DNA from: Planctomycetaceae bacterium
GTDB taxonomy: Bacteria; Planctomycetota; Planctomycetia; Pirellulales; Thermoguttaceae
Length of the DNA stretch: 33,421 bases
Assembly (NCBI GenBank): GCA_009776995.1
Contig: WRMR01000002.1
Span: 1 to 33,421, forward strand
Reading direction: 5' to 3'
Shown: one piece after another, positions 7,219-18,354 of the stretch
How the letters are laid out: each line of letters opens with the position of its first letter
How positions within the stretch are numbered: the first letter of the stretch is position 1
Notes under the pieces: model-generated
Database searches by the model: none
What the model saw: only the letters and a program-made list of their open reading frames with translations
Told to the model about the DNA's origin: nothing
Program-made: the position numbers and the translations under genes

Positions 7219-8757
7219 TCAGAGCAACTGCCGGGCTTTGATTTCGAGGTATTTGTTGATCAACGGGGCGGTCATGTCTTCGGGGAACGTGTCGAGCGTC
7301 AGCGTTCCCTGGTGCTTGAGGTCGTTGATGACCTTGTGACGCCAGTTCAAAATATCAGCGGCGGCACCGGCACGCCAAAATTCGTGGGCTTCCGACTTCA
7401 GGCTTCGGACTTCAGCAGAGAGTGCCAAAGCGGAATCTGAAGCCTGAAACCTGAAGCCTGAAGCCTCCCGCGTCTTGAAAAAATTTGTGAGCGGGTCGAA
7501 AATCTCGTGGTCGCGCAAGAACACCCCCAGTGGAAGATGACGCCCCGTGATGTTGGTCAGGTGATTCTGGATGGCCTTTGCGTTGACCAGGTCGGCAACG
7601 TTGGTCACGAGAACGACCAGCGAACGCTTGCGGCACCGTGAGGCCAGATACGCGAAGGCCTCATCGTAGCGGGACTCAACCGGTTCGGGGAACAGGTTGA
7701 AAAAGCCGTGCAACAGCCGGCTCATCTGCCGCTGTCCCGAAGTCGGCGGGATGTAATTGATGATGCGATTGGAGAAACAGAGCATCCCCACCGCGTCGAA
7801 TCGCCGGATGGCCACGTAACTGAGCATCAAGGCCGCATTGAGCGAATGATCGAGCAGCGTCAGGCCGTTGCGTGACAGGTTGGTCATCATCCGGCCGCAA
7901 TCGACCAGGAACATGATGCGCTGGCTGCGCGACATTTGAAAATCCTTGACCGTCAGTTTCTGCCGCCGGGCGGTCGCCGACCAGTCCATGAACTTGTATT
8001 GATCGTCAAGCTGGTAATCGCGGAGCCGCTCGAAATCGTTGTCATGCCCGACGCGCCGGGCCACCCGCACGCCGAGTTGATGCAAGCGGTCGGTGCGGGC
8101 GAGCAGGTCGTATTCGGTCATTTGCCGCAGGTTCGGGTAAACGCAGATTTCGCTCTCGCAGGGAATCGTGATGTCGCGATGCCAAAATCCGAGCAGGCTG
8201 CGGACACGTAACGCAACTTCTTCAAGGCGGAACAGCCCGCGTTCTTTCGGTTTGATTTCATATTCGAATGTTTCGGCGGAACGTCCCGGCAATGTACGTT
8301 CGGAAAACGCCTCCGTATCGGGGCAAAGCGTCGGCGGCACATCATCCTTGACCGTCAGACGAAATTTCCGCCGGGTGCGGTTTTCGATGCGCAACCGGAT
8401 CAAATGCGGTCGTGCGAGCGAGGCAATGCGGTCCACATCGCGCCGCACACGAAACGGTTGCCCAATGACGGGCAGCGTCGCGAAACCATCGAACAGCAAA
8501 ATCAGTGCGATGGCCGCATCGGCAGTCAACAAGACGTACCAAAAATCGTCGTAAGCATAAAGGAGCGTTGAGAAAAATGTTGCCGCAAGAATCGTCACGA
8601 ACAGCAACCTGGTCGGGTAAACGCGCCGTAACAGTGCCGGCAAAAGAAAAACGAGTAATGCCGCCGGAAAAATCAGCATCACACGGCGGTCAAACACCTG
8701 CCCGATTTCATCTGCGGCTTGGGCGAAAAGCAATACGTTTGAAAAAATATCTCTCAT
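7219..8757 (-). CDS. DUF58 domain-containing protein
   Basis: GHDNDFERLRDYQLDDQYKFMDWSATARRQKLTVKDFQMSRSQRIMFLVDCGRMM is the DUF58 core. Start taken at MRDIFSNVLLF (8757); the track ORF starts at 8796. Confidence 0.88.
   Translation of the reverse strand: MRDIFSNVLLFAQAADEIGQVFDRRVMLIFPAALLVFLLPALLRRVYPTRLLFVTILAATFFSTLLYAYDDFWYVLLTADAAIALILLFDGFATLPVIGQPFRVRRDVDRIASLARPHLIRLRIENRTRRKFRLTVKDDVPPTLCPDTEAFSERTLPGRSAETFEYEIKPKERGLFRLEEVALRVRSLLGFWHRDITIPCESEICVYPNLRQMTEYDLLARTDRLHQLGVRVARRVGHDNDFERLRDYQLDDQYKFMDWSATARRQKLTVKDFQMSRSQRIMFLVDCGRMMTNLSRNGLTLLDHSLNAALMLSYVAIRRFDAVGMLCFSNRIINYIPPTSGQRQMSRLLHGFFNLFPEPVESRYDEAFAYLASRCRKRSLVVLVTNVADLVNAKAIQNHLTNITGRHLPLGVFLRDHEIFDPLTNFFKTREASGFRFQASDSALALSAEVRSLKSEAHEFWRAGAAADILNWRHKVINDLKHQGTLTLDTFPEDMTAPLINKYLEIKARQLL
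7387..7465 (-). repeat. in-frame palindromic insertion inside the DUF58 gene (family 1)
   Basis: ggcttccgacttcaggcttcggacttcag (7387-7415) pairs 24/29 with ctgaagcctgaaacctgaagcctgaagcc (7437-7465). Encodes EASGFRFQASDSALALSAEVRSLKSEA. Confidence 0.85.
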
Positions 8758-8779
8758 GACGCTCATTCTTCTCTTGTTG

Positions 8780-9361
8780 TCACCCCATCGCTTCATCCAC
8801 TTCCAGCATGATGTTCCCGGTTTCTTTCAGCGCGCGGATGATTCGCTGGTAATGCGAGATGTCGTTATAAGTCAGTTTGCGGCCTTTGCGGTCTTTCAGC
8901 CACTTTTGCGCGGGTTGGTAACCGCCGATGGAAAACTCCCACGTTTCCGGCGGAACATGCCCGAAATACTGCGCTTCGTTGATATGGACATCGTTGCCGG
9001 AATGTTGCCACTTTTCATAACGCAGGAAATCGAGGTAGTCGGTAAAGATAATGTTGTCAAGCGAGCGTTTGTAACGGTCGAACTGCTCTTGATTGGCTTT
9101 GCGTCCGGTCAGGTCGGGATCGTCAATGTCTTTGGCTTCGACGAAAGAAACAGGAATAGTGTCCTCCTTGCGCAACAGAATCAGGTCCGGCGCACCGCAA
9201 GCCTGACGTGCCGGTTCGTTCGACACGATGAGATGCGACAACATCGCGGCCAGCAGTTGTTGCAACGCAGGCCGGTACGTATGCTCCCGCGCAAAGCCGG
9301 TTTCATACTGACGCTCGAGTTCAGTGAGGTAATCCGAAATGGATGAAGTAATTTCGTTTTG
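8780..9361 (-). pseudogene. internally deleted Type ISP-like restriction-modification enzyme (N-terminal PD-(D/E)XK nuclease plus C-terminal segment), ORF still open
   Basis: N-part GFAREHTYRPALQQLL...NEPARQACGAPDLILLRKEDTIPVSFVEAKDIDD...NQEQFDRYKRSLDNIIFTDYLDF; C-part VHINEAQYFGHVPPETWEFSIGGYQPAQKWLKDRKGRKLTYNDISHYQRIIRALKET. Both resemble the ends of about 1000-aa Type ISP enzymes. Start taken at MQNEITSS. Confidence 0.7.
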
Positions 9362-14301: not shown

Positions 14302-17300
14302 ATGCCCGACTTCTCAAAATTGAAAAAGGAAATTTCGCACGTCATGCTGGCCGACCGTTTTCGGCTGGGCAACCGGTTGCGGCAGTTGGAACGGAAATCG
14401 CTCGACGGGTGGGGCGGTGGGCGTGACTTATCCGCGCGGCGGGAGACGCTCGAAAACGACATTGCCGTTTCGTACCAGAAAGTCGAACAACGGCGGAAAC
14501 ATTGGCCGAAGCTCGCGTTTGACGAAACCTTGCCGGTCAATGAGCGTCGTGCGGAAATTGCGGAAACGCTCAAGACCAACCAGGTCGTCGTGATTTGCGG
14601 CGAGACCGGTTCGGGCAAGTCAACGCAATTGCCGAAAATCTGCCTCGACATCGGGTGCGGCTTGTATGGCATGATCGGTCACACGCAACCGCGACGCATT
14701 GCCGCGCGTTCGGTTGCTGCGCGCATCGCCGAAGAACTCGGCACGCCGCTTGGAAAGCATGTCGGTTACAAGGTTCGATTCTCCGATCAAACCTCGTCCG
14801 AAACGCTCGTCAAACTGATGACCGACGGCATTTTGCTCGCCGAATCGCAAAACGACAAGTTTTTCGAGCAATACGACACGATCATTATTGACGAAGCCCA
14901 TGAACGCTCGCTGAACATTGACTTTTTACTCGGCATGATGCGTCGTCTTGTCAAGCAACGTCGTGACCTGAAACTGATCATCACCTCGGCCACCATTGAT
15001 GCCGCACGCTTTGCCGAACATTTTAGTATGGGCAACAAAAAGGTGCCGGTCATTGAAGTGTCCGGACGCACTTACCCGATTGAAATCCGCTATCGTCCGA
15101 TGCTCACGGAGGATATTGACGAGACGGAGAGTGACGATGCAGACGAATCGGACCCGTTGCGGGCAGTGCTGAAAGCGGTGGACGAACTTGCGGCGGAAGG
15201 CCCCGGTGACATGCTCGTGTTTATGCCGACCGAGCGCGACATTCTCGAAACGGCGAAACTGCTCCGTTCGCACACATTGCCTGGTGACCCCTTGCGCAAG
15301 ACGGAAATTTTGCCGCTTTATGCGCGATTGCCCGTCGAGCAGCAACAGCGCATTTTCAAAACCTCGGCTCACCGCCGGATTGTCATTGCGACCAACGTTG
15401 CGGAATCGTCGCTCACTGTGCCGGGCATCCGCTTCGTTATTGACACCGGCACGGCACGCATGAGCCGCTACTCGGCGCGGTCCCGCACGCAACGACTGCC
15501 GATTGAAGCCGTCTCACAAGCGTCCGCAGACCAGCGTGCCGGACGTTGCGGACGTGTCGGACCGGGCGTTTGTGTGCGGCTGTATTCGGAATCCGATTAC
15601 AACAAGCGCGACCGTTACACGACACCGGAAATTCAGCGGACCAACCTTGCGTCGGTCATTTTGCAAACGAAATCACTCCAGTTGGGTGCCGTCGAAAAGT
15701 TCCCGTTCATCGATCCGCCACGTTCGGCGGCAATCACAGACGGTTACAAAACGCTGTTCGAAATTGGAGCCATCGACAACGAGAAAAACCTCACGTCCAT
15801 TGGTCGGCAGTTGGCGCAACTGCCGGTTGACCCGCGTATTGGACGCATGATTCTTGCGGCGAACGAAAACGGTGCATTGCGTGAGATGCTGATTATCGCG
15901 GCGGCACTCGAAATCCAGGACCCGCGCGAACGACCACACGAATTGCAGGAAAAAGCGGACGCGGCCCATCAGAAATTTCTTGATCCGCAGTCTGATTTTC
16001 TCGCTTACCTCAAGATGTGGGAGTTTTACCACAACCTGAAAGACAAGATTTCGCAAAACCAGCTTCGCAAGGCACGTGCGCAGAATTTTCTTTCGTACAA
16101 CCGGATGCGCGAGTGGTCGGATATTCATTTGCAGCTCAAGAGGCTTCTGGGTGAGACTTCAGGTTTCAGGCTTCAGAATGAAGTATCAAATGACAAACCT
16201 GAAGTCCGAAGTCCGAAGTCCGAAGCCTTATATGACAACTTGCATTGTGCGATTCTTACAGGGATGTTGTCGGGCATTGCGCAGCGGGATCAGAAATATG
16301 AGTACAACGTGACCGGCGGCGGCAAGTTTTTTCTCTGGCCGGGCAGCGGGGTTGCCAAGAGAGTGGCGAGTGGCGAGGGGCTAGTGGCTAGTGATTGCCA
16401 AAATGTGACTGGCCGCTCACCACTCGCCACTCGCCACCTAAATTGGATCGTTGCAACAGAACGTGTCGAGACGACACGGAAGTATTTGCGGACGGTCGCG
16501 CGTATTGAGACTGATTGGGTTGAGCCGTTGGCCGGGCACCTGATCAACAAGAGTTACAACGAGCCGCATTGGTCGCCGGAAACGGGGTATGTCAACGCTT
16601 ACGAAAAAGTGTCGCTGTTCGGACTGACGCTCGTGCCGAGACGCCGTGTCAATTACGGCACCGTCAATCCGCAGGAAGCCCGCGAAATTTTTATCAACTG
16701 CGCGTTGGTGGATGGCGAGCTTGACACGAAAGTCGAGTTTTTTCGGCATAATCAGGCCATTCGTGAAGAGGCGATTGCATTGCAGGCAAAGTTGCGACGG
16801 CACGATTTCCTGCTCGGTACCCGGGCGATTTACGATTTTTACCAAAGCCGTATTCCCGACACGGTGTATGACAGGCCGACGCTCGAACGCTGGCACAAAA
16901 CGCTTGACAACAACGGACGGCGCAACCTTTTGATGACGCTCGGCGATGTCGCACGGGAGGAAATCGACGAAGCAACGGCGGCACAGTTTCCCGATGCGCT
17001 GGCGACACTGCACGGCACCGAAGCCCGTATTGAATACACGTTCAAACCCGGCGAAGCGGACGACGGTCTCACTGTGATTGTGCCGATTGAAAGTTTGCGC
17101 GAAGTTGAGCCGTCGCGACTCGGCTGGCTTGTTCCGGGGTTGCTTGAGCAAAAAGTCGAGGCGATGTTACGGGCATTGCCCAAAACGTTACGACGACCGT
17201 TGGTGCCGATTCCCGACACGACCAAAGCGATTGTCTCGCAACTGCGATTCGGCGAAGGCAGTATCGAGGAAACAGTTGCGCGGCACGTCAGTCGCCTTGC

Positions 17301-18354
17301 AGGCGAACGGGTGACGATTGCCGATTTCGCGGGCGAACGGCTGCCAAGCGAACTGGTGATGAATATTCGCGTCGTCGGTAGCGATGGCAAACCAATCGCC
17401 GAAGGACGGCAACTTGAAACGTTGCGTAAAGAACTCGGTGTACAGGCGGCGGCGTCCGTTGCGGCGATTGACGATCCGACCTGGAGCCGCGACAAAGTGA
17501 CAACATGGGACTTTGGCGACTTTCCTGAAACGCTCGAAGTGCGTCGGGGCAACATGGCGATCACGGCGTATCCAACGCTGGTCGATCATCGCGATTCGAT
17601 TTCGCTGCGACTGGCTGACTCGCCGGACAAATCGCGGCGGCAGTCGCGGCACGGTCTGTTGCGGCTGTTTCAACTTGCCAACCGCAAGGAACTGAACACC
17701 CAGGCACAGTGGCTGCCGGGTTTCGACAAACTCAAGGTGTATGCCCAGGGCTTGCCTGAATTTGAGTTGAAACGTGACATCGCCGACCTGCTTGCCGCCC
17801 GCGCACTGGAGTTGGACACCCAATCTCTTCCCCGCTCGGAAGGCGCTTACAACGCCCGGGTGCAACAGGGGAAGACGCGCATCGGTCTTGCCGTGCAGGA
17901 CGTAACTCGCGTGATGACGCCGTTACTCGAAAACTTTCAAGCGGTGCGGTTGCTCGTCGAGCAGCATAAAAACTCGCGGTACCAGACGACACTCACCGAT
18001 GTCAAGGCACAGGTCAATCGGCTGTTCCCGCCCGGCTTTTTGACGGAAACCAACTGGCAATGGCTGAAGGAATACCCACGCTATTTGAAGGCAATCACGC
18101 AACGCTTCGACAAACTCAAAAGCGGCGGCGAGCGGCATGACAGTGAATCGACGGCCATACTCAACGAATGGTGGTTACGTTACGAAGACCGGCTCGCACT
18201 GCACGAAACGATGGGCATCATGGACCCGGAACTGGAAACGCTCCGCTGGATGCTCGAAGAATACCGCGTTTCGTTGTTTGCTCAAAAACTCGGCACGTCG
18301 GTCAAAGTGTCCGAAACAAGGCTCGAAAAGCAGTTTGAAAAAACAAGGGCGTAA
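14302..18354 (+). CDS. hrpA: ATP-dependent RNA helicase HrpA (DEAH, DUF3418 C-terminus)
   Basis: GETGSGKSTQLPKI, DEAH, ITSATIDA, TNVAESSLTVPGI, QRAGRCGRVGPGVCVRLYSE; about 1350 aa. Confidence 0.95.
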   Translation: MPDFSKLKKEISHVMLADRFRLGNRLRQLERKSLDGWGGGRDLSARRETLENDIAVSYQKVEQRRKHWPKLAFDETLPVNERRAEIAETLKTNQVVVICGETGSGKSTQLPKICLDIGCGLYGMIGHTQPRRIAARSVAARIAEELGTPLGKHVGYKVRFSDQTSSETLVKLMTDGILLAESQNDKFFEQYDTIIIDEAHERSLNIDFLLGMMRRLVKQRRDLKLIITSATIDAARFAEHFSMGNKKVPVIEVSGRTYPIEIRYRPMLTEDIDETESDDADESDPLRAVLKAVDELAAEGPGDMLVFMPTERDILETAKLLRSHTLPGDPLRKTEILPLYARLPVEQQQRIFKTSAHRRIVIATNVAESSLTVPGIRFVIDTGTARMSRYSARSRTQRLPIEAVSQASADQRAGRCGRVGPGVCVRLYSESDYNKRDRYTTPEIQRTNLASVILQTKSLQLGAVEKFPFIDPPRSAAITDGYKTLFEIGAIDNEKNLTSIGRQLAQLPVDPRIGRMILAANENGALREMLIIAAALEIQDPRERPHELQEKADAAHQKFLDPQSDFLAYLKMWEFYHNLKDKISQNQLRKARAQNFLSYNRMREWSDIHLQLKRLLGETSGFRLQNEVSNDKPEVRSPKSEALYDNLHCAILTGMLSGIAQRDQKYEYNVTGGGKFFLWPGSGVAKRVASGEGLVASDCQNVTGRSPLATRHLNWIVATERVETTRKYLRTVARIETDWVEPLAGHLINKSYNEPHWSPETGYVNAYEKVSLFGLTLVPRRRVNYGTVNPQEAREIFINCALVDGELDTKVEFFRHNQAIREEAIALQAKLRRHDFLLGTRAIYDFYQSRIPDTVYDRPTLERWHKTLDNNGRRNLLMTLGDVAREEIDEATAAQFPDALATLHGTEARIEYTFKPGEADDGLTVIVPIESLREVEPSRLGWLVPGLLEQKVEAMLRALPKTLRRPLVPIPDTTKAIVSQLRFGEGSIEETVARHVSRLAGERVTIADFAGERLPSELVMNIRVVGSDGKPIAEGRQLETLRKELGVQAAASVAAIDDPTWSRDKVTTWDFGDFPETLEVRRGNMAITAYPTLVDHRDSISLRLADSPDKSRRQSRHGLLRLFQLANRKELNTQAQWLPGFDKLKVYAQGLPEFELKRDIADLLAARALELDTQSLPRSEGAYNARVQQGKTRIGLAVQDVTRVMTPLLENFQAVRLLVEQHKNSRYQTTLTDVKAQVNRLFPPGFLTETNWQWLKEYPRYLKAITQRFDKLKSGGERHDSESTAILNEWWLRYEDRLALHETMGIMDPELETLRWMLEEYRVSLFAQKLGTSVKVSETRLEKQFEKTRA
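16155..16227 (+). repeat. in-frame palindromic insertion 1 inside hrpA (family 1, shared with DUF58)
   Basis: gacttcaggtttcaggcttcag / ctgaagtccgaagtccgaagtccgaagcc. Encodes TSGFRLQNEVSNDKPEVRSPKSEA. Confidence 0.85.
16363..16437 (+). repeat. in-frame palindromic insertion 2 inside hrpA (family 2)
   Basis: gtggcgagtggcgaggg (16363-16379) pairs 16/17 with cactcgccactcgccac (16421-16437). Encodes VASGEGLVASDCQNVTGRSPLATRH. Confidence 0.85.

Follow-up and report, generated by a model that had tools for sequence, protein, structure and literature searches.

The hrpA gene lies in a 33,421-nt stretch of planctomycete DNA (the window), and a long palindrome within it raises the question of what this segment is and how it came to be read, in frame, as part of a helicase. 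The features on which the answer depends are as follows.

14302..18354, plus strand: hrpA gene (1350 aa; TIGR01967, DUF3418), which carries both palindromes
16157..16233, plus strand: upstream GAAGYCY-family palindrome, SGFRLQNEVSNDKPEVRSPKSEA, the second element in hrpA (boundaries approximate)
16243..16539, plus strand: OB_NTP_bind domain (Pfam PF07717; aa 648-746), which encloses the element at 16363-16437
16363..16437, plus strand: GTGGCKA-family palindrome (75 nt, 25 codons), in frame, encoding VASGEGLVASDCQNVTGRSPLATRH; homologs are without it
16363..16390, plus strand: left arm of this palindrome, heptamers GTGGCGA GTGGCGA GGGGCTA GTGGCTA in direct reading
16410..16437, plus strand: right arm, inverted heptamers TGGCCGC TCACCAC TCGCCAC TCGCCAC in direct reading
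7388..7464, minus strand: GAAGYCY-family palindrome, in frame near the end of a DUF58 gene (7222-8826), read SGFRFQASDSALALSAEVRSLKSE

The palindrome at 16363-16437 is laid out as four left heptamers, a GT...AC middle, and four inverted right heptamers, so that its arms are tandem heptamers of the form (GTGGCKA)n. The outer arms (16363-16377 and 16423-16437) are perfect 15-mers, and the whole 30-nt arms (16363-16392 and 16408-16437) are 83% complementary and separated by a 15-nt spacer. Folded as single-stranded DNA, the segment reaches -29 kcal/mol, whereas shuffled versions average -11.8 (z = -7.07) and none of 200 folds as well. In 200 ORFs simulated with its composition, inverted arms within 90 nt were perfect over at most 14 nt, never 15. 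The strong fold and the perfect outer arms bear out the original prediction of a hairpin here, which was exact in both sequence and coordinates. The segment encodes 25 residues, HrpA aa 688-712; the peptide first assigned to it holds for these 25, and its final Leu belongs to the flank, outside the element. The three sense frames of this copy contain 0, 2, and 2 stop codons, and the open frame is the one used. No target-site duplication, of the kind expected at the ends of a MITE, was seen at this particular copy, the flanks of which are AAGAGA and CTAAAT.

The 1350-aa reading frame is open throughout and corresponds to HrpA (TIGR01967, 1462 bits). Residues 687 and 714 of the query pair with chain residues 663 and 666 in the alignment with E. 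coli HrpA (PDB 9ggr), leaving 26 residues here versus 2 in E. coli at the palindrome site. This agrees with the earlier claims that the flanking blocks are nearly adjacent in HrpA proteins and that an in-frame palindromic insertion is missing from distant ones; the aligned HrpA proteins show no conservation of the segment at a distance, and neither E. coli HrpA nor most planctomycete relatives have it. The interval from FFLWPGSG to IVAAERV spans 22-23 residues in most aligned relatives, 25-89 in a few, and 47 here, which becomes 22 when the 25 encoded residues are subtracted. The two closest named genomes, Planctomycetaceae MAGs whose isolate names suggest termite guts, have HrpA proteins 68-71% identical to this one, and neither the heptamers nor a comparable hairpin was found in their HrpA linkers, which are long and unrelated. 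For an empty site, the nearest comparison is with the sister species, only ~70% identical in HrpA.

The upstream interval behaves differently: it has 42 residues in most relatives and 46-161 in others, versus ~32-33 here without its element. Since the remainder is shorter than the usual 42, the upstream element seems, as judged from the alignment, to have taken the place of native HrpA loop residues rather than to be a simple addition. The original view of two palindromic insertions in hrpA applies cleanly to the downstream one, whereas the upstream one would stand in place of native loop. Both loops are variable in length among relatives (46-161 and 25-89 residues in some), which supports the idea of an insertion-permissive interval and suggests that both places accept additions. 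The 25-residue insert is presumably neutral for HrpA. An AlphaFold model of HrpA 561-860, built on a five-sequence alignment, had a mean pLDDT of 43.5, too poor to place the loop, and was discarded, so that the structural view of the loop envisaged at the outset contributed nothing. The upstream loop in the HrpA of another genus (G005, L076) carries a different palindromic repeat, read LPSPAGRGAGGEG...THPHPNPLPTNLRSAPGEG (PHPNPLP...GEG).

Counts of the repeats in this genome, a 599-contig draft, rest on pattern and model searches and on ~1.1 Mb of fetched stretches, many of which were picked for containing matches. The hrpA hairpin DNA, for which a genome search had been suggested, does recur elsewhere in the genome: its arm GTGGCGAGTGGCGAG, allowing at most one mismatch, is dispersed with 46 matches versus 2 for the reversed control, and has 0 matches in the sister species G002 and G003. 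An exact match is rare in the phylum sample (15 of 294 genomes), and some other genera of the family (G011, G024, G341, and G357) have expansions of their own. Of the 43 GTGGCKA clusters, eight fall within an ORF of 200 aa or longer, the clearest hosts being HrpA, Dxr, a GspH-like protein, and a radical-SAM/TRAM (MiaB-like) protein, while most of the checked intergenic copies are closed in all six frames. The GTGGCKA arrays vary much in length and in loop, and slippage therefore contributes to them at least in part. One GTGGCKA hairpin (L043 1255-1333) has apparent genes, recognized by eye, on both sides: it directly follows the likely 3' end of a seryl-tRNA synthetase gene, to which it would contribute the stop codon, and immediately precedes a likely tRNA gene.

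The upstream element of hrpA, read SGFRLQ...PEVRSPKSE, has arms composed of the heptamers CTTCAGR and GAAGYCC. A covariance model of this GAAGYCY family (16 copies, 82 positions) gave 125 matches, merged into 68 places, in this genome, and three weak matches in G002; none were found with it in G001, G003, G011, and G024. Copies at different sites have a common loop consensus. Of the 50 GAAGYCY clusters in the fetched sequence, at least 27 fall within an ORF of 200 aa or longer, and several others are close to ORF ends or contig ends. The Pfam-assigned hosts include Dxr, PurL, MnmE (for which a PDB search at a strict cut-off gave no matches), a squalene-hopene cyclase-like protein, FeoB, and CTP synthase; others are an exosortase, a class II tRNA synthetase, an alpha-2-macroglobulin with two copies, the DUF58 protein in the window, and a protein with the lid and Fis-type domains of sigma-54 regulators. 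Dxr, like HrpA, contains a GAAGYCY copy and a GTGGCKA copy. Compared with most relatives, it has 25 extra residues at its second site, in the PIDSEH...ILTASGGPF loop; at its first site, as in upstream HrpA and CTP synthase, the element stands in for a native loop of similar length, which may have been replaced on insertion or trimmed afterwards. The two hrpA palindromes had been called unrelated, which is right for their sequences and not for their kind, as both are heptamer-arm hairpins and both families also occur in Dxr. HrpA is one among many invaded genes and no special case.

Genic copies avoid stop codons. On the sense strand, the left arm of genic GAAGYCY copies is mostly CTTCAR (72 versus 11), and the right arm is YCCGAAG in 60 instances versus 30 of YCTGAAG, which would introduce TGA. 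The asymmetry in the direction that removes TGA is significant in genic copies (p = 3e-13) and not in intergenic ones (p = 0.63), although an element that is itself asymmetric and enters intergenic DNA in either orientation could account for part of it. Among the 27 genic GAAGYCY copies, 23 have their innermost right-arm unit in the same codon phase, while the left arm occurs in all three phases; stop avoidance accounts for only part of this right-arm bias. Because 7 = 1 mod 3, three units make seven codons, and the three frames of a given strand yield the same heptapeptide in different rotations; the rotated heptapeptides SGFRLQA and EVRSPKS are seen in most GAAGYCY copies.

From these results and the absence of the segment from homologs, we consider that the hrpA segment is probably a copy of a dispersed, non-autonomous, species-specific palindromic repeat with tandem heptanucleotide arms that has been filtered inside genes. 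The GTGGCKA family and the parallel GAAGYCY family would have spread in one planctomycete species, into intergenic and genic sites, and multiplied recently; the dispersal of the copies suggests that they move as units. Genic copies would be kept only if they preserve the frame, contain no stop, and fall where a loop can accommodate additional residues, here in the HrpA OB-fold, with selection probably acting through translation, and the heptamer period may ease the acceptance of such arrays as coding sequence. A broader reading, which we offer tentatively, is that these are self-spreading palindromes whose 7-nt unit gives coding compatibility, and that different heptamers sweep different planctomycete genomes and repeatedly rebuild the same loops.

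Local slippage is a serious rival, above all for the GTGGCKA family: a GTGGCGA-like motif of the loop would have expanded and hairpin-templated repair (quasi-palindrome correction) would have made the other arm, with nothing moving. Seven is the dominant tandem-repeat period in a 394-kb sample of large contigs not picked for matches, unit numbers vary greatly (up to ~14, in L024), and the loops of GTGGCKA hairpins are unlike one another, all as slippage would have it. However, identical heptamers at dozens of unrelated sites, seed heptamers not found in relatives at the HrpA site, and a GAAGYCY loop consensus common to many sites, which slippage is not expected to produce, make it unlikely as the whole account. 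We regard as about equally unlikely a REP-like element that one of the genome's own Y1 (RAYT-type) tyrosine transposases mobilizes. Five genes of PF01797, a family common in bacteria, are present, and GAAGYCY arms lie ~145 and ~250 nt upstream of two of them, but the other three have no heptamer nearby, the C75 and C31 loci bear other palindromes of their own, and neither a cleavage motif nor a mobilizing enzyme tied to the elements was found. Such a weak and inconsistent association leaves the Y1 transposase as a possibility for the mover.

The two remaining explanations are far less probable. The strong predicted folding could mean that the segment is a conserved structured RNA or a regulatory hairpin in the mRNA, kept for RNA structure; yet relatives are without the HrpA copy, the hosts have no common pathway, and pairing among the 16 copies of the GAAGYCY family, the one family to which this applies, shows no covariation above shuffles (score 0.136 versus 0.141, with 323 of 500 shuffles as high). 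Slightly less credible still is a repeat misjoined into hrpA during assembly. Repeats mislead assemblers and the genome is a draft of 599 contigs, but the HrpA copy is frame-preserving and is flanked on either side by the loop residues that are normally present, and the dozens of in-frame copies in unrelated genes and contigs would all need frame-preserving errors.

The dispersed repeat that we favor can be set beside several known systems. Rickettsia, together with a few other microbes, is the main known source of in-frame palindromic elements. As in Rickettsia palindromic elements (RPE) and the coding palindromes of Wolbachia, palindromic repeats occur here both in intergenic DNA and as in-frame parts of conserved protein genes, they form long hairpins, and they are missing from orthologs. 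We know of no tandem-heptamer arms in RPE. The planctomycete elements are also shorter, ~75 nt (75 at HrpA; 82 positions in the GAAGYCY model), compared with 105-146 bp for RPE, inserts of which were observed in 19 reading frames (PMC2229807). We therefore do not file them as RPE proper, the comparison being one of kind and length and not of sequence. With regard to the arms, Gmet_H4 of Geobacter metallireducens likewise consists of four tandem heptamers with copies within and between genes; it differs in its GGACCGG consensus, and the part of its description available to us presents putative regulatory RNA elements and does not describe hairpin arms or in-frame peptides. The heptameric simple repeats of Xanthomonas and Nostoc and the heptanucleotides of Calothrix are tandem, with some inverted pairs able to form stem-loops (PMC4692102); many dispersed tandem 7-nt copies are likewise found in the planctomycete genome, whereas those repeats are described as mostly intergenic and G-rich (quadruplex-forming), and have other sequences. 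REPs, of 20-40 bp (PMC3733652), resemble the present elements in the presence of many short palindromes per genome together with Y1 transposase genes, but the heptamer elements have no consistent link to the Y1 genes (GAAGYCY arms upstream of 2 of 5, at loci that contain other palindromes as well). By analogy, the elements would work like RPE, with arms built like the heptanucleotide repeats of Geobacter and Nostoc.

These are coding palindromes with heptamer arms, of several families in one planctomycete genome. Two of the families have entered core genes of metabolism and translation in a single species, its sisters being free of this, and they stand together in at least two proteins, HrpA and Dxr. 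They offer a natural experiment on how short repeats turn into protein sequence and which loops take them. For annotators they are also a warning: SGFRLQ...PEVRSPKSE, VASGE...SPLATRH, and other such low-complexity peptides come from reading DNA repeats as protein.

The genome contains further palindromes. An ungapped hairpin scan of 675 kb not picked for matches found 28 palindromes versus 0 in simulated sequence, most of them from other repeat families; such a scan undercounts the GAAGYCY family because of the regular mismatches in its arms. A third heptamer family, GCAGART / GCAAAGT / TTCAAAG, also forms palindromes, for example in HydF (L101 2218-2289) and at many intergenic sites, and 14 of its 63 clusters in the fetched sequence are in long ORFs. 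A dispersed palindrome unrelated to the heptamers, ATCAGAGCCGCGACRGT...GGAGCGGT, occurs with variants at L212 245-333, L223 1370-1438, L109 3114-3170, L106 12925-12993, and elsewhere, and L102 5535-5604 contains a perfect 30-nt inverted repeat, CTTTGTGCATTCCTTTGTGATCTTTGTGTT, with a 10-nt spacer. Furthermore, 13 of the 142 heptamer clusters have the short repeat GGGCGGTCACG no more than 70 nt away, versus 2.9 expected (L207, L047, L098, L213, L022, and L042), an excess which indicates that intergenic heptamers are often part of composite repeats.
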